A model generated the notes under the pieces. It had not been told where the DNA came from and ran no database searches. It saw only the letters and a list, made by a program, of their open reading frames with translations. From assembly GCA_030612185.1 (NCBI GenBank), contig JAUWOI010000040.1, positions 1 to 15,781 of the forward strand: DNA of 15,781 bases, read 5' to 3'. Positions 2,270 to 15,781 of this stretch are shown one piece after another. The position numbers and the translations under genes are program-made. Numbering within the stretch: position 1 is the first letter of the stretch; the number at the start of each line of letters is the position of its first letter. Source of the DNA: Anaerolineae bacterium. Its GTDB lineage: Bacteria > Chloroflexota > Anaerolineae > B4-G1.

Positions 2270-3439
2270 CTAAGTCACCACGGCTTGGTACGCCGCCAGC
2301 GTCTCCCGTGCAGTGCGCTCCCAGGAGAAGCGGGCGGCCTGAGCCAGCGCGCGGCGGCTCAATTCGGCGCGGAAGCCCTCGTCAGTCGCCAGTTGGATCA
2401 GCGCACTCGCCATTCCCTCGGCGTCGTCCGGTGGCAGCAGCACCCCCGCGTCGCCCACGACCTCGGGGATGGAGGAAATGTCGCTGCCCACGACCGGCGT
2501 GCCACAGGCCAGCGCCTCCAGCGGGGGTAGGCCGAAGCCCTCGTACCGGCTGGGAAATATGAAGGCTACCGCGCCCCGGTAGAGGGCGGGCTTGTCGGCC
2601 TCATCCACGAAGCCGATGAAACGCACGAACCGCTCGTCTAGCCCCTGCTCCCGGGCTAGCCGGCGTGGGTCTGGTGTGAAGGAAGTATCCCGTTCCGGCA
2701 GCCGCCCGGCGATGACCAGCGGGCACTCCTTGCCGATGGCCGACCCGGCCCAGCGATAGGTTTGCAGCACCGTGGCGACGTTCTTGCGTACGTCAAAGCC
2801 GCCCAGGTAGAGCACGTACCGTTCTTGAAACCAGGTTTTTTCTGCAAAACCTGGTTTCTCTCCTGGGAATAGGGAGGGTTCAGGAGTGTAGCGTTCGTCG
2901 GCGGCCAGATAGACGACGCGCACGCGCTCGGCTGGCAGTCCCAGGTGGGTGACTATGTCCTGCCGGGAGGCTTCCGAGTCGGTGAGCACCAGCGCACTGT
3001 TCTGCGCGGTCGTGCTGACCAGCGCAGTGTAGAGCCGCACCAGCGGCCCGCCCCGGTACTCGCGCAGCAGCAGCGGGATCAAGTCGTGGATGGTGACGAC
3101 GGTGGGGATGGAAGAGCGAATAGGCGGCGCCCAGTACGGCACGTGGACGACGTCGGCCTCCAGGCGGCGACAGGCGCGGGGAAAGGCGACTTGCTCGAAC
3201 CAAACCTTGCCCAGAGCAGTCGTTAGCCGATAGCGGTTAGTAGTCAGCCGGAACTGGACGTTTGGGATCTGGGATTGGGGATTTGGGATTTGGGATTTGG
3301 GGTTTGGGGTTCTGCCCTCGGGCGCGATCAGCACAATCTCCAGGCCCGCCGCAGCCAGATGCTCCACCAGCAGCCGCGTGTATTGCCCGCTGCCGGTGGT
3401 GGGACTATTCCAGAACCAGGCGTTGAGAGCGACGCGCAT
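2270..3439 (-). CDS. Glycosyltransferase family 4 (GT-B fold)
   Basis: A 389-residue cytoplasmic glycosyltransferase. The N-terminal Rossmann domain begins MRVALNAWFWNSPTTGSGQY, which holds the glycine-rich acceptor-side loop. Strand/helix elements VVHVPYWAPP (97-106) and VVTIHDLIPLLL (114-125) follow. The C-terminal domain has the nucleotide-sugar features LYLGGFDVRKN (210-220) and the E-x7-E motif, E300 in SRYEGFGLPP and E308 in PLEAL. The family transfers a sugar from an NDP-sugar with retained anomeric configuration, typically in exopolysaccharide or glycolipid synthesis; the substrate is unknown. The galE gene nearby makes a sugar-pathway link plausible. Two short repeats are inserted in frame: a heptamer tract at residues 44-60 and a palindrome at residues 195-204. 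No clear ribosome site precedes the ATG, but the N-terminus matches the family. Confidence 0.9.
   Translation of the reverse strand: MRVALNAWFWNSPTTGSGQYTRLLVEHLAAAGLEIVLIAPEGRTPNPKSQIPNPQSQIPNVQFRLTTNRYRLTTALGKVWFEQVAFPRACRRLEADVVHVPYWAPPIRSSIPTVVTIHDLIPLLLREYRGGPLVRLYTALVSTTAQNSALVLTDSEASRQDIVTHLGLPAERVRVVYLAADERYTPEPSLFPGEKPGFAEKTWFQERYVLYLGGFDVRKNVATVLQTYRWAGSAIGKECPLVIAGRLPERDTSFTPDPRRLAREQGLDERFVRFIGFVDEADKPALYRGAVAFIFPSRYEGFGLPPLEALACGTPVVGSDISSIPEVVGDAGVLLPPDDAEGMASALIQLATDEGFRAELSRRALAQAARFSWERTARETLAAYQAVVT
2827..2858. repeat. 32-bp perfect inverted repeat inside the glycosyltransferase gene
   Basis: Arms GAAACCAGGTTTT (2827-2839) and AAAACCTGGTTTC (2846-2858) are perfect reverse complements around the 6-bp loop TTCTGC. 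It is read through in frame as about ten residues (EKPGFAEKTWFQ region) in the inter-domain linker. It looks like a small mobile palindrome captured in a tolerant loop. Confidence 0.85.
3261..3309. repeat. Heptamer tandem repeat (TTTGGGA) inside the glycosyltransferase gene
   Basis: Seven consecutive 7-bp units vary around TTTGGGA (TTTGGGA, TCTGGGA, TTGGGGA, TTTGGGA twice, TTTGGGG twice). On the coding strand this gives a repeated PNPxSQI-type peptide at residues 44-60, in the loop after the first Rossmann strands. Because 7 is not a multiple of 3, gain or loss of one unit would shift the reading frame. Confidence 0.9.
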
Positions 3440-4440: not shown

Positions 4441-4467
4441 GCTCCTCCGCTCCTCCGCTCCTCCGCT
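4441..4467. repeat. Octamer tandem repeat (GCTCCTCC) over the galE stop codon
   Basis: Three perfect copies of GCTCCTCC plus GCT. The tract ends inside the galE stop codon (4466-4468), so the end of galE is formed by the repeat. Confidence 0.85.
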
Positions 4468-5449
4468 AATCTCCATACCCATGCGGATGCGTGCGGTGCC
4501 ACTCCCAGGCGTGCTCGACGATGGTGCGCAGGTCGGGGTATTGCGGCCGCCAGCCCAGTTCCCGCCGGATCTTCTCACTGCTGGCGACCAGCACGGCCGG
4601 GTCGCCGGGGCGACGGGGGCCTACCTCAGCCGGGATTGCGTGACCGGTCACCTCCCGGCAGGTCTCGACGACCTCCTTGACGGTGAACCCCTGGCCGTTG
4701 CCCAGATTATAGATGCGGCTGCCCTCGTCGAGCGCCTGCAGGGCCAGGATGTGGGCCTGGGCCAGGTCGGTTATGTGGATGTAGTCGCGCACGCAGGTGC
4801 CATCGCGGGTGGGGTAATCATCGCCAAAGATGATGATCTTCTCGCGCTGGCCCAGCGCTACCTGCAGGGTAAGCGGGATCAGATGCGTCTCGGGATCGTG
4901 GTCCTCGCCCCGCTCGCCGGAGGGGGAAGCCCCGGCCGCGTTGAAGTAGCGCATCGCGGCGTAGCGGAAGCCGTAGATGCGGTCCAGCCAGTGGAGTATG
5001 CGCTCCAGAATGTTCTTGGATTCACCATACGGGCTGCCAGGCACGATGCGTTCCTGCTCATCAATCGGCATACGCTCTGGGTCATCGAACAGATTGGCGC
5101 TGGAGGAGAGAATGAAACGGCGTATGCCGTGAGCGACCGCCTCCTGCAGCAGGTTCAGGCCGTTGGTGACGTTGTCGCCTATGTACATGAACGGATGCTC
5201 CATAGACTCGCCCACCAACGTGTAGGAGGCGAAGTGCATCACCGCCTCGACGTCGTGAGTGTCGAACAGAGCTTTGACGGCGGCCCGGTCGCCCAGGTCT
5301 CCCTCGACGAGAGTTGCATCGGGGTGGACAGCGGCCCGGTGGCCATAGTACAGGTTGTCGAAGACGACGACCGTATTGCCTTGCTTGATCAATTCCTCAG
5401 TGACGACACTACCGATGTAACCAGCACCGCCGGTGACCAGGATATTCAT
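4466..5449 (-). CDS. galE: UDP-glucose 4-epimerase
   Basis: A 327-residue extended short-chain dehydrogenase that interconverts UDP-glucose and UDP-galactose using bound NAD, in the cytoplasm. The start at ATG 5447-5449 is chosen because AAGGAGG lies 9 nt upstream and the NAD-binding motif TGGAGYIG starts at residue 6; the longer reading only translates the octamer repeat. Other features are the catalytic Ser segment SSSANLF (115-121), the YxxxK pair Y141/K145 in YGESK, the RYFNAAGA segment, and [14 protein letters not shown] near residue 225. The length is typical. [11 protein letters not shown] departs from the common SSSATVYG form. Sugar supply for the GT4 glycosyltransferase nearby is a reasonable guess. 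Confidence 0.93.
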
Positions 5450-5476
5450 GTGTAGACCTCCTTGTGGGGTTGATGG

Positions 5477-5537
5477 ATTCGTACATTCGTACATTCGTAA
5501 ATTCGTACATTCGTAAATTCGTAGATTCGTAAATTCG
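5477..5537. repeat. Octamer tandem repeat (ATTCGTAN) upstream of galE
   Basis: Seven full units of ATTCGTA followed by C, A or G, plus a partial unit ATTCG (5533-5537). Six of the units are ATTCGTAC or ATTCGTAA and one ends in G. It fills the leader region 27 bp before the galE start codon, so unit number could alter promoter spacing or leader length. Confidence 0.92.
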
Positions 5538-5552
5538 GCCTTGACTTCTCGG

Positions 5553-5584
5553 CTTACCAAGTTACCAGTCTACCAGTTTACCAA
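5553..5584. repeat. Second octamer tandem repeat (NTTACCAR-like) at the phospholipase gene end
   Basis: Four adjacent 8-bp units: CTTACCAA, GTTACCAG, TCTACCAG, TTTACCAA. The tract overlaps the last codons and stop of the phospholipase-like gene, whose C-terminal residues GKLVDW derive from it. Confidence 0.8.
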
Positions 5585-6428: not shown

Positions 6429-8459
6429 CTACGTCTCCAATGCCTTCATCACTGCCCGCTCCACATCCCCATAGAAGACCAGGTCCACCTTCTCCACCAC
6501 GTCTTCCGGCAGACCGGCGAATTGGGACTTGTTGGACAGCGGCACCACCGCCCGCAATGCGCCGTTGTCCATAGCGATGGCCAGGGGCTCCATCAACGAG
6601 AGGACACCCTTGATGTTGCCCTGGATGGTCAGGTCGCCCATCACGATGGTGCCGCTTTGCACACGGCGGTTTTGCAGCGCGGATATGATGGCTACGTAGA
6701 AGGCAATTCCACACGCACATTCGACGCGCCCGCCGCTGAGGTCCACGACTTCGGCGTAGATGTCCTTCTGTGCCAGCAGAGGCTCAATGCCGAGCCGGGT
6801 TTTAACGATTTGAAGGTAGGCAAAGGCCCGGTTGAGAGACTCGCGGAGCGACGTGTCGAGGCCGGTCGGAACGCGCAGTTTGCCAGTGCCCGCCGTCAAG
6901 GTGACCTCCAGCCTGAACAGTCCCACCCGCGCTTCCGTATCGGCTGCCGCGGTAAAGACGGTGCCTGCCGGTTGGGGATCGGTGGGGATAGCGCCCGTGC
7001 CGCCTTGCTCCGGCACGCCGACCGTTCGTTCAGTATCGTCCTCTTCGTCTATGTACGAAAAACTGGTCTTGTAAAACTCGAAGGAGCCCCGTTTTTTGAG
7101 TTGTTCCTTCACCCGGCGCCGGCCCTCCATCGCCAGTTCCAGATATTCCTGCAACTCGGCTTTGGTGTAACCGCCGTCCGGGTGGAGCAGTTTGAGCAAC
7201 CCGGCCACCGTCCGTCTGATGGCGGAAGCATCCCGGCCTTCGACGTGCGAGCCAAAGCGATAGTGCCGTTCGACGGCGTCATACAGGTTTTGCTTGCGCA
7301 GCGCGCGAAAGGCCTCGGCCAGATAGTCGGTCACGAAACCGTAGTGCACAGTCAGGATGTCTTTCGAGGTCTTGGGCACTTCCCAGCCAGGCAGATAAAA
7401 ATGCAGCCGGTCAATCACAGCCAGATCAAAGTCGGGTGGTAGGGGCTGGAAAAGGTCGGTGGCGCTGTTCTGCACCAGCGTCTCGACGGGCTGGTTCAGG
7501 TTGCCCACAAAGACCAGTGACGCATCGGCGATCACCTGCGTGATGCCTCGGCTAAAGCGCCCGTTGGCCATGTAGTCTTTCATGATCTGGATGGTCTCGA
7601 CGTTGGCAGCCTTCATTCCTCCCACTTCGTCAAAAGCCACCACATCCCAGTATCCCACCAGTCCGACCTGGCGGCGAGCGTTGTTGTAGAACAGATTGGC
7701 CGCGCTGGCCTTGCCGCCCGAGATAAGAATGCAGTAGGGCGACATCTCGCTGTAGGCGTAGGATTTGCCGGTGCCGCGCGGCCCCAACTCGACAAAGTTA
7801 TAGTTCTTTTCGACAAAGGGGATCAGCCGAGTCAAGAGCAGCATCTTGAGGCGGTGCTCCATCACGGCTGGCTCAAGGCCAGTCGTCCGTAACAGAACAT
7901 CCAGCCACTCGTCCCGTGTAAAGTTGCCACGGCCCGCGCTGAATTCTTCAAAATCGAAACGCGCCAGTTGGATGGGACGCAATTCGGCGATGTGGAAGGG
8001 GCTCTCCCGCTTGCCCATCTCGGGCGGGTGAAACTCCAGGTCCACGATAGCCCAGATGCCCCCCTCCAGCAACCGGTCGTAGCGGCGGTAGTACTCCTCC
8101 GGCACGTGGATACGGTTGTAGCCGAAGTTGTCCATCGCGGCCCAGTGTTTGACTTCGCTGGGCAGATAGCGCACCTGGACGCGGTCAATAAAACGGTGGC
8201 GACCACGTTGCTCGACCAACGACTGGGCTTTGTTGGATTCGTCGTGCCGAAAGTAGTTGCGGTGCAGCGTGTCTTTGACCGCTTCGATACCCAGGGCAAC
8301 CTCGTCTGGGTCGTCGGAGGCACAGTACTTGCCCAGCAGATACTCCAGCACGTAGGAGGGGACATTCTCGCCGCCCTTGATTTGATGGAGCAGGTCTTTG
8401 CGCACGACCTTGCCGGCAAAGACTTGATTCAGTTTTTGATCTAACACATCGGCTTGCAT
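6429..8459 (-). CDS. brxL: BrxL, BREX AAA+ protein with Lon-like C-terminal domain
   Basis: A 676-residue protein. The start at ATG 8457-8459 is chosen because TAGGTGAG lies just upstream and includes the pglZ stop codon. An N-terminal BrxL domain (about 1-210) is followed by an AAA+ core with Walker A GPRGTGKS (226-233), Walker B VVAFDE (273-278), a sensor-like FVGNLN (317-322) and an arginine in IDRLHFY. A low-complexity linker (about 475-515) precedes a Lon-protease-like domain (about 515-676). Compared with E. coli Lon, the catalytic Ser position is Ala582 and the Lys position is Pro625, so proteolysis is not expected. BrxL of type 1 BREX is a DNA-binding AAA+ ring needed for phage restriction. 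It is the last gene of the operon, 8 bp after pglZ. Confidence 0.93.
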   Translation of the reverse strand: MQADVLDQKLNQVFAGKVVRKDLLHQIKGGENVPSYVLEYLLGKYCASDDPDEVALGIEAVKDTLHRNYFRHDESNKAQSLVEQRGRHRFIDRVQVRYLPSEVKHWAAMDNFGYNRIHVPEEYYRRYDRLLEGGIWAIVDLEFHPPEMGKRESPFHIAELRPIQLARFDFEEFSAGRGNFTRDEWLDVLLRTTGLEPAVMEHRLKMLLLTRLIPFVEKNYNFVELGPRGTGKSYAYSEMSPYCILISGGKASAANLFYNNARRQVGLVGYWDVVAFDEVGGMKAANVETIQIMKDYMANGRFSRGITQVIADASLVFVGNLNQPVETLVQNSATDLFQPLPPDFDLAVIDRLHFYLPGWEVPKTSKDILTVHYGFVTDYLAEAFRALRKQNLYDAVERHYRFGSHVEGRDASAIRRTVAGLLKLLHPDGGYTKAELQEYLELAMEGRRRVKEQLKKRGSFEFYKTSFSYIDEEDDTERTVGVPEQGGTGAIPTDPQPAGTVFTAAADTEARVGLFRLEVTLTAGTGKLRVPTGLDTSLRESLNRAFAYLQIVKTRLGIEPLLAQKDIYAEVVDLSGGRVECACGIAFYVAIISALQNRRVQSGTIVMGDLTIQGNIKGVLSLMEPLAIAMDNGALRAVVPLSNKSQFAGLPEDVVEKVDLVFYGDVERAVMKALET

Positions 8460-8467
8460 ATTCTCAC

Positions 8468-11080
8468 CTAATCCAGCATCTTGTTTTTCAGCGTCAATCG
8501 CGCCCAAACCACCGGCGCCTCCGGGTTGGTGGCCCGGATCTCCACCTGGTCACCGTCGAAATCTGGGTCGAGCAGCACGGGCACAGGGGTGTCCTGACCG
8601 GCGATCAAGGTGACCTCGCGTGTGACCTCGTCGCGCGCATCGCAGTCGGCGGCATCGCCCACCTTGCGGGCAGACGGGTCCGGGCCGTCGAAGGGTTCGA
8701 TTCTGACACGGATGCTCTTCTCCAGCAACGAGTTGAACCAGACTTTGAGCCCAATCACCCGGCTGGTGAACGCATCGCTGCGATAGTGAATCTCCAGTTC
8801 CTGGCTCGTCTGTTCGGCCGGGTGGCCTTTGGCCCGCAGGGTGATCAAGGGCAAGAGACACTCTTGCAGGCTCAGGCCCCCATGAAAATAGCCGCTCCCA
8901 GCCGAGTAGAGACCAAAGCCATTCGGCACAACCAGTTCGGTAGCATCGCCCTGGATACCGACGTGCGCCGCGTTAAAGACGCGGGTACCGATCCCTTCCT
9001 TGACCTGCCTCCCCAGCAGGCTGCGCCGCTTTTTGAGAGGCCATTCCCCGGTGGGAGACTCAGTCACGACGTCGCCCGGCAGCACCTCTGGGAGGAGGAC
9101 GTGGCCGTGGTCGGTGGCGATGACGATGTAACAGTAACCCAGGCGGACCAGTTGGGTGACCGCAGCCTTGAGGTCGCCGAGCAGGTCGGTCATGTACTTG
9201 CGTGCCTCGCGCAGGGTGATGGTCTCGCCCATACGATCAATCCGGGAATCGCGCACTACCACCAGATCAGCGTTCTTGAGGCGGGCCTGACGTTTAGCCG
9301 TGGACGTCAGCGAGAGGAATTGGCTGATCTCGACGTCCACAAAACGATCACCATACTTTTCGGCCAGAAACCTCATACGGTCGGCCGAGGTTTTGAGACG
9401 ACGGTCGCCCAGGTGGGGGATCAAGTCGCCGTCCACCTGGCGCATGGTGAGCGTGCCATCCGCCCCAGGCAAAAGGGCCGCCATACCCACCAATGTGATG
9501 GTGGGGAGCGCGGACGCCCCCGGGTGCCGGGCCCTTGCACCCAGCGGGCTCAACGCCCCGGCCAGGGCCCGCCCCCTCGCGAACCGCACAGCGTCCGGCA
9601 GAAAGTAGGCCACCTTTTCGCGGGCGGCCAGCGCTGGGGCGACGAACTGGTCAAATACCTGGGTCTGGCGCAGGACGGTTTCGGGGGGCCAGCCGGTCTT
9701 TTCCACCGCTGCCAGGAAGCGCTGCTGGATGGCGTCAATCATCTCTCGATAGCGCGCCCGGCAGCGAGCGGTGACGGCTTCCAGTTCCTCACACTCGGTG
9801 CACTCGGCGATGCTCTGTTCCATCAGCCGCTGACGGCGATCCAGGTCGATCCAGCCATCCTCACGGGCGTAGGCGGCGACTATCTTGTCCACCTCTTGCT
9901 CCCACACCTGCTCGACCCGGTTGGCTACATCAAGTAAGGCCACACAACGCTCGGCCACCCGCCATACCTGCGTCCGTTCAGGCTCACTCCGCCAGACCGA
10001 CTTGGCCCGGCCAGCGATGATCTCGCGGGCGGCATCCAGTTGATCGGCCTCCAATGCCTGGGCGAGCGCGGCCAGATATTGCCGCTCCTCAAAAGCAAAG
10101 GTGTCCCGCTGGCCCAGGCGCGCCACGCCGGCGAAATGGCCCGGCAGCCCCAATTCTCGTTCGACGTGGTTGGCCAGGTCAATGTAGGTATCGCGGGTGC
10201 CGACCGTACCGCGCAGCCGCTCGGCGAGTGCGTATATCCGGTCGCGGTACGATTCGTCGGCACAGGGCAGGTTGACTAGCGCTGCGGGGAGTTCGCCGGG
10301 CAGGTCAAAGGCGAACTCGCTAAAGAGCACATACCGCGCCAGCAGTGCCCAACGCTGCTTCCATTGCTTGGCGCTCCCCGGCGGCACGAATCCCAACTCG
10401 GCCGCCAGGAGCCGCAGGACTTCTTCACCACACCCAGGCACATCAGCTACCTTCTGGACCGCTTGCAGATCGCCCAGCAACTGGACAGCGACCTCGACAG
10501 CCGACTGGGTGCCGAGGGCCTGTCTGGTCAGTGGGTAGGCGGCCCCGCGCTCTAATTGGTCGAGCATTGCCAATGCCTGCCCTGAGCCTGCCTTCGACCC
10601 TTCGGGTTTTCCGAAACCCGAAGGGTCTGTCGAAGGAGCCTGCCCTGAGCGGAGCCGAAGGGCCAGTTGCCCTTCGCGGAAGAGCCGCTCGATCTGCTCG
10701 GCCAGGTCGGGCAGCGCCTGGTAGGCCAGGGAAGCCAGTTGCTCCGACTCTTTGTCGCCGAACGTGTCCCCGGCCACCGCGAAGACCTCGAAAGGGTCTT
10801 GCAAGCGAGCATCACCTGTCGAGCGTTTGAAAGGCAGGTAGATGAGCAGATTGGCGCTTGACTCCTCTAGCGAACCAGAGACATTCAACTGGCGATAGAT
10901 CGCTCCGGCCTCGCGCCGGGCGCGCAGGCGAGACTCTTCAGCGGAGACGACGCGGCAGTTGGGAGCAGAGAAGCGTTGGACAAAGTCGCCAAAGGCCCGC
11001 TCGCCATCGTACCAGACGACGATGCGGGCTGAGTCCAGTTTGGAGGTAATTAGCCTGTGAACGTGGTTGGAAACTTTCAT
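8468..11080 (-). CDS. pglZ: PglZ, BREX alkaline-phosphatase-superfamily protein
   Basis: An 870-residue protein. The start ATG 11078-11080 has GGAAGGTGAG directly before it; a TTG four codons upstream is an alternative. The N-terminal region (1-130) begins with RIVVWYDGERAFGDFV, typical of PglZ. The central part is helical, and the phosphatase-like core begins at VAYFLPDAVRFARGRAL, where D496 is the likely metal ligand. TITLVGMAALLPG and IVIATDHGHVLL follow, with the metal-binding DHGH at 657-660. PglZ is essential for BREX defence and works with PglX and BrxL; its chemical substrate is not known. Residues 139-168 derive from a palindromic repeat inserted in frame. The core differs in wording from the E. 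coli type A PglZ as I remember it, so the PglZ subtype is left open. Confidence 0.92.
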   Translation of the reverse strand: MKVSNHVHRLITSKLDSARIVVWYDGERAFGDFVQRFSAPNCRVVSAEESRLRARREAGAIYRQLNVSGSLEESSANLLIYLPFKRSTGDARLQDPFEVFAVAGDTFGDKESEQLASLAYQALPDLAEQIERLFREGQLALRLRSGQAPSTDPSGFGKPEGSKAGSGQALAMLDQLERGAAYPLTRQALGTQSAVEVAVQLLGDLQAVQKVADVPGCGEEVLRLLAAELGFVPPGSAKQWKQRWALLARYVLFSEFAFDLPGELPAALVNLPCADESYRDRIYALAERLRGTVGTRDTYIDLANHVERELGLPGHFAGVARLGQRDTFAFEERQYLAALAQALEADQLDAAREIIAGRAKSVWRSEPERTQVWRVAERCVALLDVANRVEQVWEQEVDKIVAAYAREDGWIDLDRRQRLMEQSIAECTECEELEAVTARCRARYREMIDAIQQRFLAAVEKTGWPPETVLRQTQVFDQFVAPALAAREKVAYFLPDAVRFARGRALAGALSPLGARARHPGASALPTITLVGMAALLPGADGTLTMRQVDGDLIPHLGDRRLKTSADRMRFLAEKYGDRFVDVEISQFLSLTSTAKRQARLKNADLVVVRDSRIDRMGETITLREARKYMTDLLGDLKAAVTQLVRLGYCYIVIATDHGHVLLPEVLPGDVVTESPTGEWPLKKRRSLLGRQVKEGIGTRVFNAAHVGIQGDATELVVPNGFGLYSAGSGYFHGGLSLQECLLPLITLRAKGHPAEQTSQELEIHYRSDAFTSRVIGLKVWFNSLLEKSIRVRIEPFDGPDPSARKVGDAADCDARDEVTREVTLIAGQDTPVPVLLDPDFDGDQVEIRATNPEAPVVWARLTLKNKMLD
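10576..10663. repeat. Palindromic repeat inserted in frame in pglZ
   Basis: About 88 bp with a near-perfect hairpin at 10591-10634: CCTTCGACCCTTCGGGTTT, loop TCCG, then AAACCCGAAGGGTCTGTCGAAGG, the right arm carrying 3 extra bases. It is flanked by two copies of CCTGCCCTGAGC (starting at 10576 and 10639). The element is translated as about 30 residues rich in Gly, Ser and Pro (SGQAP...GSGQALA) in a region where PglZ would otherwise be helical. It resembles dispersed REP-like repeats of environmental bacteria. Confidence 0.85.
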
Positions 11081-11098
11081 CTCACCTTCCAATCAAGA

Positions 11099-11167
11099 AG
11101 TGAGCACATCCACGTGCGAACGGCGTTTGCAAGACCCGTTCCGCATCTGAGGACGCTCCACTCATCG
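11099..11167. repeat. 69-bp dyad element, copy A (between DUF4276 gene and pglZ)
   Basis: Identical in length, and 54 of 69 positions identical without gaps, to copy D at 13245-13313. The element has dyad symmetry: outer arms AGTGAGC / GCTCCACT and a central palindrome GAACGG...CCGTTC around TTTGCAAG. It fills most of the 101-bp gap between the DUF4276 stop and the pglZ start. Confidence 0.8.
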
Positions 11168-11181
11168 CTTGCTGATCGGCG

Positions 11182-11853
11182 CTATCTTTGAGTTTCACCG
11201 ATCTTTTCCATCTTTGTCAGCCACTTGTCAAAGTGGGAACATTCCTCACGAATCTGCTCAATGCCAATCTCAAGAATGATCAAAGGCCCATATAGCGGTT
11301 TTTGATAGCCAGGAAAAATGGCTTCAAGCCGCTTGGATGGCGCCGTTTGCGGATTGTCGTCTATCTCTTCAGGGGACTCAAATTGCTCCCTAATTGCGGT
11401 CAGTTCATCTCCTTTGTTTGTCCCAGGAAATGCCTGATTGATCTTTTCGGGAGCCACGAATAGCATGGCCTCGAACTCGTGCAGGGCCAGGTACGGAAGA
11501 AACCTGGGATGACCGATGTCCTTGCGAATCTCTCGCTCCACGTAAGCAACCTGATCATAGCACGAAACTGTTGGCACAGTCCTTCGCCCTGGAAAGTCTG
11601 TCGGAAGCCCGTAAAAGTCAACCATTGTGGTGACTGTAGCAGCACTCGTATCGCCCAAGAGCCGGACAACATCGTTCTTGAATTTACCATAGGAAACGAT
11701 CCCGCCCTTAAAATCGGGACCACTTTTCACACGCTTGGTCGTAGCCAGTTTGGCAATAGGATAGACGCCAACTGTGGATAGATGTGAGTACAGAACCTCT
11801 CGGACGAACGTCTCCTCGGTCTGGCCTTCTACAAGAATGAGAACCTTGCTCAT
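11182..11853 (-). CDS. DUF4276 family Toprim-like protein, partner of the adjacent ATPase
   Basis: A 223-residue protein whose start overlaps the ATPase stop as ATGA (11850-11853). It begins KVLILVEGQTEE, the strand-plus-acidic motif (E9, E13) of Toprim-like DUF4276 proteins. TTMVDFYGLP (D79) and YLALHEFEAMLF (E126, E128) follow and supply the other acidic residues expected for metal binding. The length matches the family. ABC-type ATPases paired with Toprim-fold proteins occur in defence systems such as PARIS (AriA plus AriB) and in OLD-family nucleases, where the Toprim partner is the nuclease effector. Here the effector domain is DUF4276 rather than the DUF4435 of PARIS, so a PARIS-like role is inferred from architecture only. 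Confidence 0.85.
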   Translation of the reverse strand: MSKVLILVEGQTEETFVREVLYSHLSTVGVYPIAKLATTKRVKSGPDFKGGIVSYGKFKNDVVRLLGDTSAATVTTMVDFYGLPTDFPGRRTVPTVSCYDQVAYVEREIRKDIGHPRFLPYLALHEFEAMLFVAPEKINQAFPGTNKGDELTAIREQFESPEEIDDNPQTAPSKRLEAIFPGYQKPLYGPLIILEIGIEQIREECSHFDKWLTKMEKIGETQR

Positions 11854-12944
11854 CGTTGCGGCCTTCCTCCCAGGATATTCTTCTCCCAGAGATCACCGAG
11901 GCCATAATCTTCTAACCAACTTTCAATCTTTTGAGCCTCCAGGTGTTTGAACTTGGACTCTCCTTCTTCTCTGTCCACAACAACGATGTCCTCTGGTCCG
12001 AACTGATTTACCAGCGAGACGGATTGTGTGGACACGATGACTTGTGCCTTGTTGGCGGCGCTTCGCAACATACTCGCCAGCAGCGTGATGGCATACGGAT
12101 GAAGCCCCAACTCGGGCTCGTCAATTAGAATAGTAGAAGGCAGGGTAGGTTGGAGCAGAAGCGTTGCGAGGCTCATAAAACGGAGTGTTCCATCCGACAG
12201 AGAATGTGCGTCAAAGTAGGCATCGGAGCCCTTTTCACGCCATTCCAGTTTGATGGTATCGGGATTACGCGGTGCGGGCCGCAGGCGAAAGTCATCGAAA
12301 AAGGGCGCTGCCAGACGAATGGTCTTTACGAGCCTATCATAGTGTTCTCGCTGTGTTTCTCGCAGCAGATACAGAAATGCAGCCAGGTTTGAAGCGTCTG
12401 GTCTCAGTTCAGTATTGTCGTCAATGTGTCCAGGCTGTTTGGCCTTGGCACTCGCGCTGGTGTCGTGGAAATGGTAGATTCGGTAACTCTTTAACCGTTT
12501 CAATACGTAGCGTGCAATTCTACCGGATTGCTTTTTGGCCTCTTCGTGGAGTTGCGTTTCTTTGTGCCCCCTACCAAGCCAAACCTCATACGGTTTATCA
12601 TATCCTTCCCCATGATACCAACATCTTTCGTCAGCGAAGATCAAGATATCCTGAGCAGATGGAACCAATCTGGCCTGGTAATCATTGATGCCATAATCCA
12701 GACGGATGAATATCTCGTCAGTGACCTTTTGGCCAAAGTACAGCAGTCCATCTACCCCGACCGACTGGGCGACAAATAACTGCAAGTTGCCTTCTACGAT
12801 GTTGTTTAGAAGTTCAAAAGCCGAGATGAAATTCGTCTTTCCTGAGCCGTTCGCGCCGATCAGGATGTTTAGAGATCCAAGTTCCAAGTCCATATCGCGA
12901 ATGGATTTAAAGCCCTTTATTTCGATACGGTCAAGTGCACTCAT
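11850..12944 (-). CDS. AAA_21/ABC-type ATPase of a nested ATPase-Toprim defence pair
   Basis: A 364-residue protein. The start ATG 12942-12944 is preferred because the conserved N-terminus (MSALDRIEIKGFKSI) begins there with GGGGG about 7 nt upstream; the longer reading to 12980 translates part of repeat copy B. ATPase motifs are complete: Walker A GANGSGKT (30-37), ABC-like signature LSDGTLRF (249-256), Walker B and catalytic Glu in TILIDEPELGLHP (271-283), and the switch STQS (305-308). The C-terminus WEKNILGGRP is common in this ATPase group. The inserted region 40-245 lacks a long coiled coil. Such ATPases sense phage factors and control an associated Toprim protein, encoded here by the overlapping downstream gene. 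The pair sits within the BREX operon, between copies of the 69-bp element. Confidence 0.9.
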   Translation of the reverse strand: MSALDRIEIKGFKSIRDMDLELGSLNILIGANGSGKTNFISAFELLNNIVEGNLQLFVAQSVGVDGLLYFGQKVTDEIFIRLDYGINDYQARLVPSAQDILIFADERCWYHGEGYDKPYEVWLGRGHKETQLHEEAKKQSGRIARYVLKRLKSYRIYHFHDTSASAKAKQPGHIDDNTELRPDASNLAAFLYLLRETQREHYDRLVKTIRLAAPFFDDFRLRPAPRNPDTIKLEWREKGSDAYFDAHSLSDGTLRFMSLATLLLQPTLPSTILIDEPELGLHPYAITLLASMLRSAANKAQVIVSTQSVSLVNQFGPEDIVVVDREEGESKFKHLEAQKIESWLEDYGLGDLWEKNILGGRPQR

Positions 12945-12969
12945 CAGCAACCCCCATTCTTCAAATTGG

Positions 12970-13038
12970 AGTGAACACACCTATGTACAAGCATTTCTTG
13001 TCAAATCCGCCCCTCATCTAGGGATGCTCTACTCCTCA
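12970..13038. repeat. 69-bp dyad element, copy B (upstream of the ATPase gene)
   Basis: Aligns end to end without gaps to copy A, with 44 of 69 identical positions, and is the most diverged copy. The ends AGTGAAC and GCTCTACT keep the inverted pairing. It lies 25 bp before the chosen ATPase start codon. A run of eight T follows on the plus strand (13041-13048). Confidence 0.65.
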
Positions 13039-13054
13039 CGTTTTTTTTCTTCGG

Positions 13055-13174
13055 CTACACCACCGTGTATTTGACTCCTCGACCCTTTCCCGTCTTCTCG
13101 ATCTTTCCTGCAGCCAACAAGGACTTGATGGCCCCATTCCATTGACCAGCCTCAACACCGCTGCGTTCAAACAG
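13055..13174 (-). pseudogene. Winged-helix C-terminal remnant
   Basis: An open frame ending in TAG at 13055-13057 encodes 39 residues: LFERSGVEAGQWNGAIKSLL, then AAGKIEKTGKGRGVKYTVV. The helix-turn-helix pattern followed by a basic KxTGKGRGxKYT wing is typical of the C-terminal winged helix of larger DNA-binding or ATPase proteins. There is no start codon; the frame begins exactly where repeat copy C starts (13174). It is therefore the tail of a gene removed by rearrangement at the repeat. The parent gene is unknown. Confidence 0.6.
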
Positions 13175-13233
13175 TGCGAGCGGCGTTTGCGTTTGCGAGC
13201 CCCGTTCCGCATCTGGAGATGCTCCACCCCTCT
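13174..13233. repeat. 69-bp dyad element, copy C (truncated on the left)
   Basis: Matches copy A from its position 17 onward (GTGCGAGCGGCGTTTGC ... CCCGTTCCGCATCTG) but carries a 6-bp duplication of GTTTGC in the centre and lacks the first 16 bp. The missing end is where the winged-helix remnant begins. Confidence 0.7.
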
Positions 13234-13244
13234 AGCGCAGGTGG

Positions 13245-13313
13245 AGTAAGCACGCCCACGTGCGAGCGGTGTTTGCATGCCCCATCCCCCACCTGGGGGT
13301 GCTCCACTCCTCG
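13245..13313. repeat. 69-bp dyad element, copy D (downstream of the ATPase-nuclease gene)
   Basis: Full-length copy with ends AGTAAGCAC and GTGCTCCACT. Inverted pairing of GGAGT-AAGCACGCCCACGTG with GGAGTGGAGCACCCCCAGGTG (on the opposite strand) extends to about 20 positions. It is adjacent to copy C in the same orientation. Between it and the stop at 13387 lie about 73 bp in which I see no gene or clear promoter. Confidence 0.8.
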
Positions 13314-13386
13314 ATTACAATAGTTTCCGAACAAGTGCGTTGCACCTGTACCCCTCTATCTGCGGTGACGAAAAGTGTCGGCCTGT

Positions 13387-15168
13387 CTACCATCGCAGCA
13401 GTGGCAACGCCCGCAGCCCAAATGCTGCCAGCAATGTGTCAAGTTGCTCCCCATCGCTGAACAGCACCCCCTCCCGCCGCAACGACGCCTCTGCTTCGGC
13501 CGTGAACCCGCTCCGGCCAAAGAACCAGCGCGCCGACGGCGGGTATTTCCACACCTCCCCCGCAACCTGGGAGGCCGCCAGAAAGCGCTTTGTCTCCTCT
13601 ACTCCTACCGGCTCTTTCCAGTTCTTGGACTCGACACACCACCACTCCTCCAGCCCGGCTGTCCCCACCACGTCTATCTCTACCTGCGGCGTTCCTTCTC
13701 CCTTGAAGGGGTGTCGCGCCACCACGCGGTCAAAGCGGGGGAGCTTGACTTTTCCTCTCGTGTTAAAGAACCGCTCTCCCTCCACCTCCCGGTCGTCGAA
13801 TTTGCGCAGTAGCAACTCTATATAAGCCTCGGCCAACAGCCCCACCAGGTCACTGTAACTGCCTTGCAGCGAGATGTACCTGGCTGTCAACTCCCGTTCT
13901 GTCTGCGTTTGGGTGATACCATACCGCTGTGCTTTGACCAGCGTACCGAGATAGCCGCGCAAGATAGGGTCCTTGACCACTCCGTAGGTGACGCCCAGGA
14001 TATCCACCGGTTCGATCAGGTCGGCCCGGGCCAGGTGTTGCAAGGATTGATATACGTCCTCGTCGCTCACTTGCCGACTCGCTGCCAGCCGGTGAGCGTC
14101 ATCCGGCGTGAACGGCTCCCCCTCCCGCTCCGCCATCGTCAACAACACCTCGCGGGTCAGGCCGTGTTGATTGGCTCGGAACAGCGTCTGCGTCACCCAA
14201 TCGCTCAGGTCGCTAAAGATCGTTCCTCGGGTGATGTCCACCGCTGTGGCCCGTGCTAATATGCCCGGGTCGTCCAGATGCCAGCCTTGCGAACCGGCCT
14301 GACTTACCACTGCCCTGATGTAAAAGGGATTGCCATCGGCGCGGTGGGCCAGTTCCGCTGCCACTTCCTGGCTGACCCGCAGGCCGTAGGGCCGGGCAGA
14401 CCGCTCGGCTAACTCAATGCCGTAATAACCCTCCAGCCCGCCAAAGCGTTCCACCTTGAAGCGCAAGAACAGAGGACCGGTGCCAAGGATCTGCCGGGTG
14501 AAGAGAGTGACGGCCGAACCGGTGATCAGATTGGGACATAGCAATCCTTCCACGCCGGGCTTAAAGAGAGCCAGGATGTCCGGTTTGCCCGCTTCGGTCG
14601 TGTCCACGTCCAGGATACGCTGAAACTCGTCCACCAGAAAGACTATCGGCGTCTGGTCCAGATCCGATACGTCCCGTGCCCCCTCCAGGGCCACCCGCAT
14701 CAGGTCTATCGGTTCGTCCAGAAAAGCGCGAAAGCGGGTCGCTACCCGCTGCAGGCCTGACGGGCCGTTCTGTTGAGCCAGGTCCAAGAGATCACCCAAT
14801 TTCAGGTCGAGGAAGCGCTCGTGTTCATCCTTGTGGCGGAAGGCAAAGTAGTGGCGCAAAAAGTTGGCAAAATAGTCCCGGGCAAAGGCTACACCGGTTT
14901 TGGCCATATCTTCCAGGTTGGCATAGACAGGGGTGACCTCGTCTTGTTCCCAGAAGAGGCGGTTGAACAGACGCAGTAGCACCTCTGTCTTGCCCATCCT
15001 GCGCCGGCCGATCAGGGCGTGACTCATCATCGCCAGGCGCGGGGTGCCCAGGATGCGCTGGAACCAGCGATCCAGAAACTCTTGCCGGTCGGTAAAGATC
15101 TCGTCCGAGATGATCTGGGTGTATGGACCTATGGGATTGTCCTTACGGCTGTGCTTCTCGTTTGACAT
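13387..15168 (-). CDS. ATPase fused to a PD-(D/E)XK nuclease, coupled to pglX
   Basis: A 593-residue protein starting at ATG 15166-15168 with GGAGGA 9 nt upstream. It overlaps the pglX end by 26 bp, so translation is probably coupled. The N-terminal ATPase has Walker A GRRRMGKT (54-61), Walker B IVFLVDEFQRIL (175-186) and an ITGS sensor segment (216-219), a pattern of the ORC/STAND-related archaeal-type ATPases. A winged-helix region follows (about 330-410). The C-terminal part has a nuclease signature: E447 in a helix, D499 in VEIDVVG, and E513/K515 in CVESKNW, i.e. E...D...ExK, with a following QVAGEVWKY helix. It is not one of the standard BREX proteins I know. A DNA- or NTP-sensing nuclease that assists or backs up BREX is inferred from position. 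Confidence 0.85.
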   Translation of the reverse strand: MSNEKHSRKDNPIGPYTQIISDEIFTDRQEFLDRWFQRILGTPRLAMMSHALIGRRRMGKTEVLLRLFNRLFWEQDEVTPVYANLEDMAKTGVAFARDYFANFLRHYFAFRHKDEHERFLDLKLGDLLDLAQQNGPSGLQRVATRFRAFLDEPIDLMRVALEGARDVSDLDQTPIVFLVDEFQRILDVDTTEAGKPDILALFKPGVEGLLCPNLITGSAVTLFTRQILGTGPLFLRFKVERFGGLEGYYGIELAERSARPYGLRVSQEVAAELAHRADGNPFYIRAVVSQAGSQGWHLDDPGILARATAVDITRGTIFSDLSDWVTQTLFRANQHGLTREVLLTMAEREGEPFTPDDAHRLAASRQVSDEDVYQSLQHLARADLIEPVDILGVTYGVVKDPILRGYLGTLVKAQRYGITQTQTERELTARYISLQGSYSDLVGLLAEAYIELLLRKFDDREVEGERFFNTRGKVKLPRFDRVVARHPFKGEGTPQVEIDVVGTAGLEEWWCVESKNWKEPVGVEETKRFLAASQVAGEVWKYPPSARWFFGRSGFTAEAEASLRREGVLFSDGEQLDTLLAAFGLRALPLLRW

Positions 15169-15781
15169 TCGCCATTTCCTCCATCTTTGAGTCGTATGAC
15201 AACAACTCCTCCTGATCCGCTTGTTTCTTCTTCTGCCTCTTCCCTCGCTTCTTCGGCGCTCTCTCCGGCACCTGGCACAACTCCTCCAACCCGTGCGCGA
15301 TGGCGATGGAGCGATCCCGCTTGCAGACCTCGCGCACGTGGTCCGGCCAGAGGGTGTAGGCCAGGTGCGCCCAGTCGTACTCGCCCGCCTCCAGTTTTTT
15401 CCATACGGCCTCGGTGTCTTTGGCCCACTTGCGCAGACGGAACAACCGGTGCAGCGGGGCGGCGTTGATGATCACGCCGTCGTTCAGGTCCGGCTTGTAG
15501 GGCAGCGCGGCGATGCGCAGCAGTTCGTCGCGGAACTCGCGCAGTTCGGCCAGAAGAGCGCGGGTTTCGTCGAGTTGGTCGCGCAGGGTGGTGGTGGCAC
15601 GGCCGATGGCCTGGGACAGGTCGGCTTCCAGGCCCGCGATATGGCCCTTCACCTGCTCGATCTTGGGCGTGACGTAGCGGTTGACTCCGGTGTAGAGGAT
15701 CTGGTCGTCGAACCGGTGGTAGTAGAGCCACAGGGTGTAGGAGCCGGAGGAGGTGGAGAGGGGCCAGTAGATGGGAGCCTT
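15143..15781 (-). CDS. pglX: PglX, BREX adenine-specific DNA methyltransferase (C-terminal 212 residues)
   Basis: The frame is open to the right edge and ends at 15143-15145. It reads KAPIYWPLSTSSGSYTLWLY near the edge, then YHRFDDQILYTGVN, a long coiled-coil segment with DLSQAIGRATTTLRDQLDET, KPDLNDGVIINAAPLHRLF, and an acidic/basic tail with KKRGKRQKKK. These are features of the C-terminal part of PglX-type methyltransferases, which modify adenine in a non-palindromic site so that host DNA is spared. The catalytic N-terminal methyltransferase domain lies beyond the window. The assignment is supported by pglZ and brxL downstream. A Type IIG-like relative would share this tail, but the context favours PglX. 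Confidence 0.88.
   Translation of the reverse strand, partial: KAPIYWPLSTSSGSYTLWLYYHRFDDQILYTGVNRYVTPKIEQVKGHIAGLEADLSQAIGRATTTLRDQLDETRALLAELREFRDELLRIAALPYKPDLNDGVIINAAPLHRLFRLRKWAKDTEAVWKKLEAGEYDWAHLAYTLWPDHVREVCKRDRSIAIAHGLEELCQVPERAPKKRGKRQKKKQADQEELLSYDSKMEEMANVKREAQP

Follow-up and report, generated by a model that had tools for sequence, protein, structure and literature searches.

Probable REPIN-type paired hairpins in the gaps beside a HEC-01-like gene pair of an Anaerolineae BREX locus

Four related elements in two intercistronic gaps

The DNA analysed here, called the window, is the whole 15,781-nt stretch of contig JAUWOI010000040.1 from an Anaerolineae bacterium (GenBank assembly GCA_030612185.1). 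It carries genes of a bacteriophage exclusion (BREX) defence system, namely those for BrxL, PglZ and the end of PglX, and a gene pair for an AAA_21 ATPase and a DUF4276 protein that resembles HEC-01. Four related elements of about 70 bp, A to D, lie only in the two gaps beside this pair. They very probably represent a family of mobile palindromes of the REPIN type, i.e. inverted doublets of repetitive extragenic palindromes (REPs), which hitchhikes between defence genes and is not a defence signal. Their approximate natural ends are as follows; bit scores refer to covariance model R1.

11097-11166, minus strand: copy A, left REP hairpin 11138-11161 (minus), right 11100-11121 (plus); 80.1 bits; 14 of 14 stem pairs standard
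12968-13037, minus strand: copy B, left REP hairpin 13009-13032 (minus), right 12971-12992 (plus); 62.3 bits; 12 of 14 stem pairs
13175-13232, minus strand: copy C, left REP hairpin 13204-13227 (minus) whole, right REP gone at the junction with a gene remnant
13243-13312, minus strand: copy D, left REP hairpin 13284-13307 (minus), right 13246-13267 (plus); 77.3 bits; 12 of 14 stem pairs

An earlier sequence-only reading had described these copies, and most of its description holds. A, B and D can be aligned over 69 bp without gaps (A/D 54 of 69 positions identical, A/B and likewise B/D 44 of 69), and no further copy exists in the window, where the best other 69-mer reaches 33 of 69 against A on either strand. 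All four are intercistronic as claimed, within the gaps 11081-11181 and 12945-13386; according to our own gene list, gaps of any kind account for about 8% of the window. C is indeed truncated, with the left hairpin alone remaining. The coordinates given earlier are replaced by the ends listed above.

Copy A is located between the DUF4276 gene (stop codon 11182-11184) and the PglZ gene (ATG at 11080), 15 nt past the stop of the former and 16 nt upstream of the start of the latter. Copy B, the most diverged, ends 23 bp upstream of the ATG of the ATPase gene (12944). Copy D is offset from copy C by 80 bp, in register. An origin of C and D by recent tandem duplication was considered and rejected, as C is nearer to A (C/D 34 of 44 identical, A/C 37, A/D 33).

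A profile constructed from 12 copies of relatives, with no window sequence included, recovered all four elements on the minus strand, scoring 43.3 bits for A, 25.1 for C, 24.7 for D and 17.5 for B, the last through its left half alone. The top score was 4.3 bits in the window outside the four copies and 11.7 bits among 200 dinucleotide-shuffled windows (filters off). An Rfam search of the window gave zero matches at gathering scores.

Hairpin structure and covariation

The sequence of a typical copy is [tag] GT-NN(N)-GCATC-CTCA-GATGC-NN(N)-AC, followed by a spacer and then by the inverted repeat of the same sequence. Behind a short tag, each hairpin consists of a 4-nt loop on an inner stem of about 5 bp, then a small internal loop, then 2 outer bp. 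The three intact window copies each join two such REP hairpins in inverted orientation into one unit, and C is one REP. The right REP of copy D forms the stem-loop GCACG-CCCA-CGTGC. Among the seven window halves, the tag is GGAG in four, and TGAG, GGGG and GAAG in one each. Two small hairpins describe the dyad noted in the sequence-only reading better than one palindrome with a second palindrome at its centre.

The proposal that selection acts on structure is supported by covariation of the stems. Under the two-hairpin model, 95.2% of cells in 15 copies are paired, and five pairs are changed on both sides, in 14 such cells against a shuffled mean of 3.4. None of 500 shuffles matches 14 cells, and slid versions of the structure are paired in at most 45.7%. 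A single long hairpin was rejected as the conserved structure, being weaker on the same counts (87.9% paired, 9 cells against a mean of 3.5; 3 of 500 shuffles). Both folds are possible because the two halves of the element are homologous.

Distribution and placement in related genomes

A degenerate pattern applied to GTDB contigs detected two places, both in the Anaerolineae metagenome-assembled genome SJ142 (G001), and nothing was found by degenerate pattern in viral contigs. BLAST with a consensus derived from the window revealed three strong places in SJ142 (E 5e-13 to 1e-11). When the query was derived from SJ142 instead, nine of 40 genomes (SJ142 and relatives) matched at E ≤ 0.01, with 44 matches in G001, 38 in G002, 5 in G003, 38 in G004, 1 in G011, 12 in G014, 2 in G016, 7 in G017 and 26 in G030. 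Model R1 gave 57 matches in G001, 45 in G002, 7 in G003, 48 in G004, 11 in G014, 6 in G016, 15 in G017 and 130 in G030, and, in further genomes, 27 in G272, 15 in G287, 86 in G295, 62 in G178 and none in G283; these are matches and not places, palindromes being scored on both strands separately, and scoring covered no more than 150 candidates in any genome, with the result that element-rich genomes are possibly undercounted. Within the class, 11 further genomes, those with a related PglZ, were examined and R1 was silent in 10 of them; the exception, G375, has 7 matches at 4 places. According to the sequence-only reading, hundreds of copies spread evenly through a genome would mark an ordinary REP family and refute its proposal. 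The relatives come close to this, with interspersed elements at 6 to 130 R1 matches per genome.

Tandem arrangement was also observed. In G030 (locus L049, contig C214, 963-1203), four REPs follow one another with an exact 80-bp period beside a gene for a REP-associated tyrosine transposase (RAYT), and this period equals the spacing of window copies C and D.

Placement was assessed at 77 sites from G001, G002, G004 and G030, using simple longest-ORF (open reading frame) gene calls. The element lies mostly outside ORFs at 57 of them, compared to 8.4% of random intervals from the same DNA. Intergenic sites with two neighbours (n = 56) fall between codirectional genes in 41 cases, convergent in 11 and divergent in 4; a comparable preference is stated for REPs (PMC3733652). 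At the 41 codirectional sites, elements are oriented with transcription in 22 cases and against it in 19, and are thus unbiased.

One gap could be compared across genomes. The 160 nt upstream of a pheT-like gene hold the element in SJ142 only, i.e. in one of 11 genomes read (12 searched). Seven of these 11, SJ142 included, bear the element somewhere, and two have pheT genes that are 89-91% identical. In the same gap of G004, G002, G017 and G016 (L271-L275), other short tandem-like repeats are present, for example taattaggtaattaggtaatt (L271) and gagactagagactagagact (L275). Kinship to attC-like sites was dropped, since one copy sits between the pheS-like and pheT-like genes (both names assigned by eye).

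Association with RAYT genes

A Y1_Tnp search in 10 genomes produced 35 matches. Inspection of 30 Y1_Tnp loci with a narrow pattern disclosed GCATC-type REPs in the flanks of two, in SJ142 (L068, 180 aa) and in G030 (L049, 189 aa). Both genes exceed the NCBIfam cut-off for REP-associated tyrosine transposases (124.9 and 128 bits, respectively, against 80), and the SJ142 protein matches TnpArep (PDB 4er8, E 7e-9). The REPs nearest to the SJ142 gene are about 22 and 25 bp from its ends, while the G030 gene lies between the array of period 80 and a further set of REPs.

A homologue of the RAYT at E ≤ 1e-25 is present in 24 of 396 genomes of the class. Seven are close, counting the G030 query together with those of G295, G287, G283, G178, G001 and G272 (60-74% identity). 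Hairpins tagged with GGAG and sharing the same inner 5-bp stem flank both sides of the gene in all seven (query counted), in contrast to one of 19 distant homologues (32-44% identity), that of G045. The upstream hairpin of G287 stands some 680 bp away from the gene. The flanking stems differ among genomes: GCATC in G001 and G030, GCACG in G272, G295 and G287, GCATG in G178 and GCGCT in G283. Some versions near RAYT genes are perfect over 8-9 bp, as in GGAG TTC GCACG CCCA CGTGC GAA CGG of G272. Copy D of the window carries in its right half the GCACG-CCCA-CGTGC stem-loop of the hairpin flanking the G272 gene (L204), and BLAST with the window consensus gave 27-nt matches at 89% beside this gene (E 0.005, weak). 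The tagged scans of RAYT flanks demanded GGAG or GG[AC]G and are uninformative about the tag itself; in an untagged scan, GAGGA was found to precede the stems in G178 and G272.

Genes around the elements and other repeats

Genes and gene remnants of the window that surround the four copies are listed below.

6429-8507, minus strand: BrxL (BREX), by family matches
8468-11080, minus strand: PglZ (BREX), by family matches
11182-11853, minus strand: DUF4276 protein, HEC-01B-like, by family matches
11850-12944, minus strand: AAA_21 ATPase, HEC-01A-like; ATG chosen as start, an upstream GTG at 12980 falling within copy B
13055-13177, minus strand: winged-helix-like open-frame tail between C and B, 40 codons and stop, own start not seen; adjoins the broken end of C
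13387-15168, minus strand: P-loop ATPase with a possible nuclease-like C-terminus, both judged by eye; lies upstream of the gap with D, C and B
15143-15781, minus strand: C-terminal end of PglX (BREX), continuing beyond the window edge

At the thresholds applied, neither Pfam nor PADLOC nor NCBIfam yielded a match for the product of 13387-15168. For the open-frame tail, the top Pfam match is DIP2311-like_C, whose score of 17.3 bits (E 0.006) does not reach the family cut-off of 27. The right half of C was lost at this tail, which favours decay of the element over its upkeep.

The closest homologues of the window PglZ (P0002-P0006) are 76-89% identical to it, and named homologues include Anaerolineaceae (P0014), Anaerolineae (P0041), Chloroflexi (P0042) and one Krumholzibacteria (P0056). 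Together with the relatives of the repeat, the PglZ homologues point to a probable host in the Chloroflexota. Two BREX loci of G309 (PglZ about 50%, BrxL 78% identical) lack both HEC-01 and the 13387-15168 gene; by this comparison, segment 11081-15142 looks like accessory DNA in the window locus. PglX and PglZ genes overlap in G309 (C57; by one base in L115) and in G375 (L118), whereas in the window accessory genes spanning 4 kb separate the two. The PglX-PglZ junction may be an entry point for such genes.

Three further repeats or insertions were observed. PglZ of the window contains an in-frame insertion of 29 residues (10574-10660, minus strand; LRLRSGQAPSTDPSGFGKPEGSKAGSGQA), missing in six of its seven closest aligned homologues and shorter in the seventh (P0002). 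The DNA of this insertion includes a 14-bp palindrome (GACCCTTCGGGTTT ... AAACCCGAAGGGTC), and the insertion resembles another palindromic repeat of this locus, one that the protein tolerates. Short tandem arrays occur at 5477-5537 (8-bp unit ATTCGTAA, about 7.6 copies, inside reading frame 4466-5560) and at 3261-3308 (7-bp unit TTTGGGA, about 6.9 copies, inside frame 2270-3439).

Proposed origin and alternative explanations

In the origin that we consider very probable, the elements would form a REPIN family of Anaerolineae, non-autonomous mobile DNA built of two inverted REP hairpins with a short tag (GGAG in most of the aligned copies of relatives). In relatives, hairpins of like form flank a RAYT that belongs to the HUH class of IS200/IS605; such an enzyme presumably recognises the single-stranded REP. 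By analogy with known RAYTs, it would cut near the REP and copy or move the doublet into extragenic DNA. The gaps around the accessory ATPase and the HEC-01 pair may have supplied extragenic landing places, in which old insertions would have diverged and one of them, C, would have been broken. The elements would have no role specific to this locus, and an effect on expression of HEC-01 or PglZ, if any, would be a side effect.

Several observations weigh against a REPIN origin. The canonical REP tag GT[AG]G (PMC6006769) is present in none of the seven window halves. At 20 of the 77 sites in relatives the element overlaps ORFs, as crudely called. The covariation set consists of 15 hand-picked sequences, some from close relatives, and the structure was derived from these same sequences, so that the comparison of two hairpins with one outweighs the shuffle count. 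Target-site repeats show no clear excess in either of two rough tests: direct repeats of at least 2 bp at element ends occur at 4 of 46 sites, against 9.8% by chance (some ends being misplaced by the pattern), and those of at least 4 bp, sought at ends set by the profile with 3 bp of tolerance, at 19 of 66, where 40 control runs averaged 13.2 and reached 21 at most.

The link to RAYTs is also uneven. The loose scan for GGAG hairpins is by itself positive at 13 of 19 distant loci, and consequently only the stem shared by both sides discriminates. No close RAYT homologue accompanies the element in genomes G002, G003, G004, G014, G016 and G017 (the best RAYT-like match is 31% in G002 and 25% in G004, with none at E ≤ 1e-10 in the other four), perhaps as a result of incomplete assemblies or because the family is old there. 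Conversely, G283 has the RAYT and its hairpins and yet zero R1 matches. Finally, the cluster of four copies within 2.2 kb is accounted for by conjecture alone, namely that extragenic room for REPINs to land or persist arose with the accessory genes that separate PglX from PglZ.

The sequence-only reading had suggested marks of a swappable cassette, an mRNA hairpin or an operator as candidate roles. None of them gains support from the interspersed distribution in relatives, the unbiased orientation and the DUF4276 loci described below. A co-opted mRNA element, in which intergenic hairpins tune expression of HEC-01 and PglZ through greater stability of upstream RNA, stalled ribosomes or hidden ribosome-binding sites, is improbable. 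Copy A is close enough to the DUF4276 stop and the PglZ start for an effect on translation to be possible, and REPs up to 15 nt from a stop codon can stall ribosomes (PMC12306157); however, the stem of A has its first pair some 20 nt away from this stop codon. Compared to shuffles, folding of the minus-strand RNA is better in B and D (z -3.0 and -3.1, respectively), whereas the gain is small or nil in A and C (z -1.4 and 0.25), and the 22 to 19 split of orientations in relatives is a further point against tuning of mRNA.

A related and equally doubtful scenario combines mobility with function. It supposes a RAYT lineage of Chloroflexota with its own non-canonical REPINs, GAGGA-tagged and internally looped, whose stems change with the transposase, and whose insertions are kept at junctions of an accessory defence module in BREX owing to an uncoupling or damping effect of the hairpins on expression of HEC-01 and PglZ.

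We regard it as quite unlikely that the elements are boundary or exchange marks that bracket HEC-01 and guide insertion or excision of a defence cassette. Copies on both flanks of HEC-01 suit this explanation, as do the accessory-like segment 11081-15142 and the two G309 BREX loci, which run from PglX directly into PglZ. The border between PglX and the neighbouring ATPase, however, has no copy, and A and B are merely 44 of 69 identical. None of four DUF4276 loci in three element-bearing genomes has the element nearby (three above the family cut-off; 1.5 kb read on each side where the contig allows, HEC-01 pairing of each locus unchecked). The 147 neighbouring ORF pieces in relatives matched 21 PADLOC models at 1e-20, a number without a baseline, and no BREX or HEC-01 model is among them; the commonest is mad3 (7 members), and most others are PD-T4-6 models with one member each.

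The element was likewise absent from related BREX loci, where the sequence-only reading had proposed to look for it: none of 20 PglZ or BREX loci (L101-L120, 11 genomes, some overlapping) contains it, the best score being 8.7 bits. This comparison says little because R1 finds the element in only one of the 11 genomes, G375, whose BREX locus is without it; six BREX loci lacking the element are, for the same reason, a nearly empty test of cassette marks. The argument that related BREX loci exclude a link with BREX was dropped, since 10 of the 11 genomes have no element.

A classical miniature inverted-repeat transposable element, mobilised by a DDE transposase acting on terminal inverted repeats, would explain the inverted ends, the length of about 70 bp and the interspersed distribution. 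It is very unlikely, given the lack of a clear excess of target-site repeats, covariation at the level of hairpins within each half, and RAYT genes flanked by hairpins with the stem of the family. An operator for a shared regulator, to which the palindromic form and positions upstream of genes would be suited, can practically be dismissed, as the neighbours of the element are also convergent genes (11 of 56 sites) and seldom divergent ones (4 of 56), and a repressor that binds duplex DNA should not need changes that preserve pairing.

A REPIN origin deflates a suggestive defence signal: a palindrome lying between genes for defence can belong to a family of repeats linked to RAYTs. It would also add to the Chloroflexota a REPIN family with a tag other than GTAG, and the seven RAYT/hairpin pairs with differing stems offer a natural series for the study of recognition between RAYTs and hairpins.

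Comparison with known systems

REPINs were described as inverted REP doublets able to fold as a hairpin and linked to RAYTs (Bertels and Rainey 2011, PMC3116915). The window family resembles them in its two inverted REPs, short spacer, length of about 70 bp, and extragenic, interspersed occurrence, and the family in relatives does so in its tandem arrays (G030, period 80) and in RAYT genes flanked by the same kind of repeat. It differs in having GGAG in most copies in place of GT[AG]G, in 2-3 unpaired bases per stem, and in its host phylum, the Chloroflexota.

GTAG repeats are listed for Chloroflexi, including GTAG-23 of T. roseum (PMC3733652). These REPs share with the present family a tagged stem-loop, extragenic location, dimers, RAYT association and the phylum, but the tag differs, and by this tetranucleotide our elements fall outside the canonical GTAG REP superfamily. 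Palindromes were also counted in three Chloroflexota genomes in the RepRanger paper (PMC12306157). Our literature search found no paper joining BREX with repetitive extragenic palindromes, BREX with DUF4276, or REP, GGAG and tyrosine transposase.

Subclass 2.6 of TnpAREP (Bertels group 5), found mainly in Bacteroidetes, is flanked by atypical structures and not by GT[AG]G REPs (PMC6006769). The RAYTs described here are similar to it in length (about 180 aa) and in WQ and Y-x-H-x-N-P motifs, identified by eye. In contrast to NH[LIV]H of that subclass, their HUH motif is DHLH in four of seven and DHIH, DHFH and NHLH in one each, and one of the seven has Q or N at the position before NP. Affinity to subclass 2.6, judged from motifs by eye, is only a lead.

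E. coli REPs with their TnpAREP (PMC8266576, PDB 4er8) are comparable in that the stem is broken by conserved mismatches and in the similarity of the SJ142 RAYT to 4er8, while the sequences of tag, stem and loop differ. The elements are very probably a variant of the known REPIN kind, one in which the canonical tag is absent.

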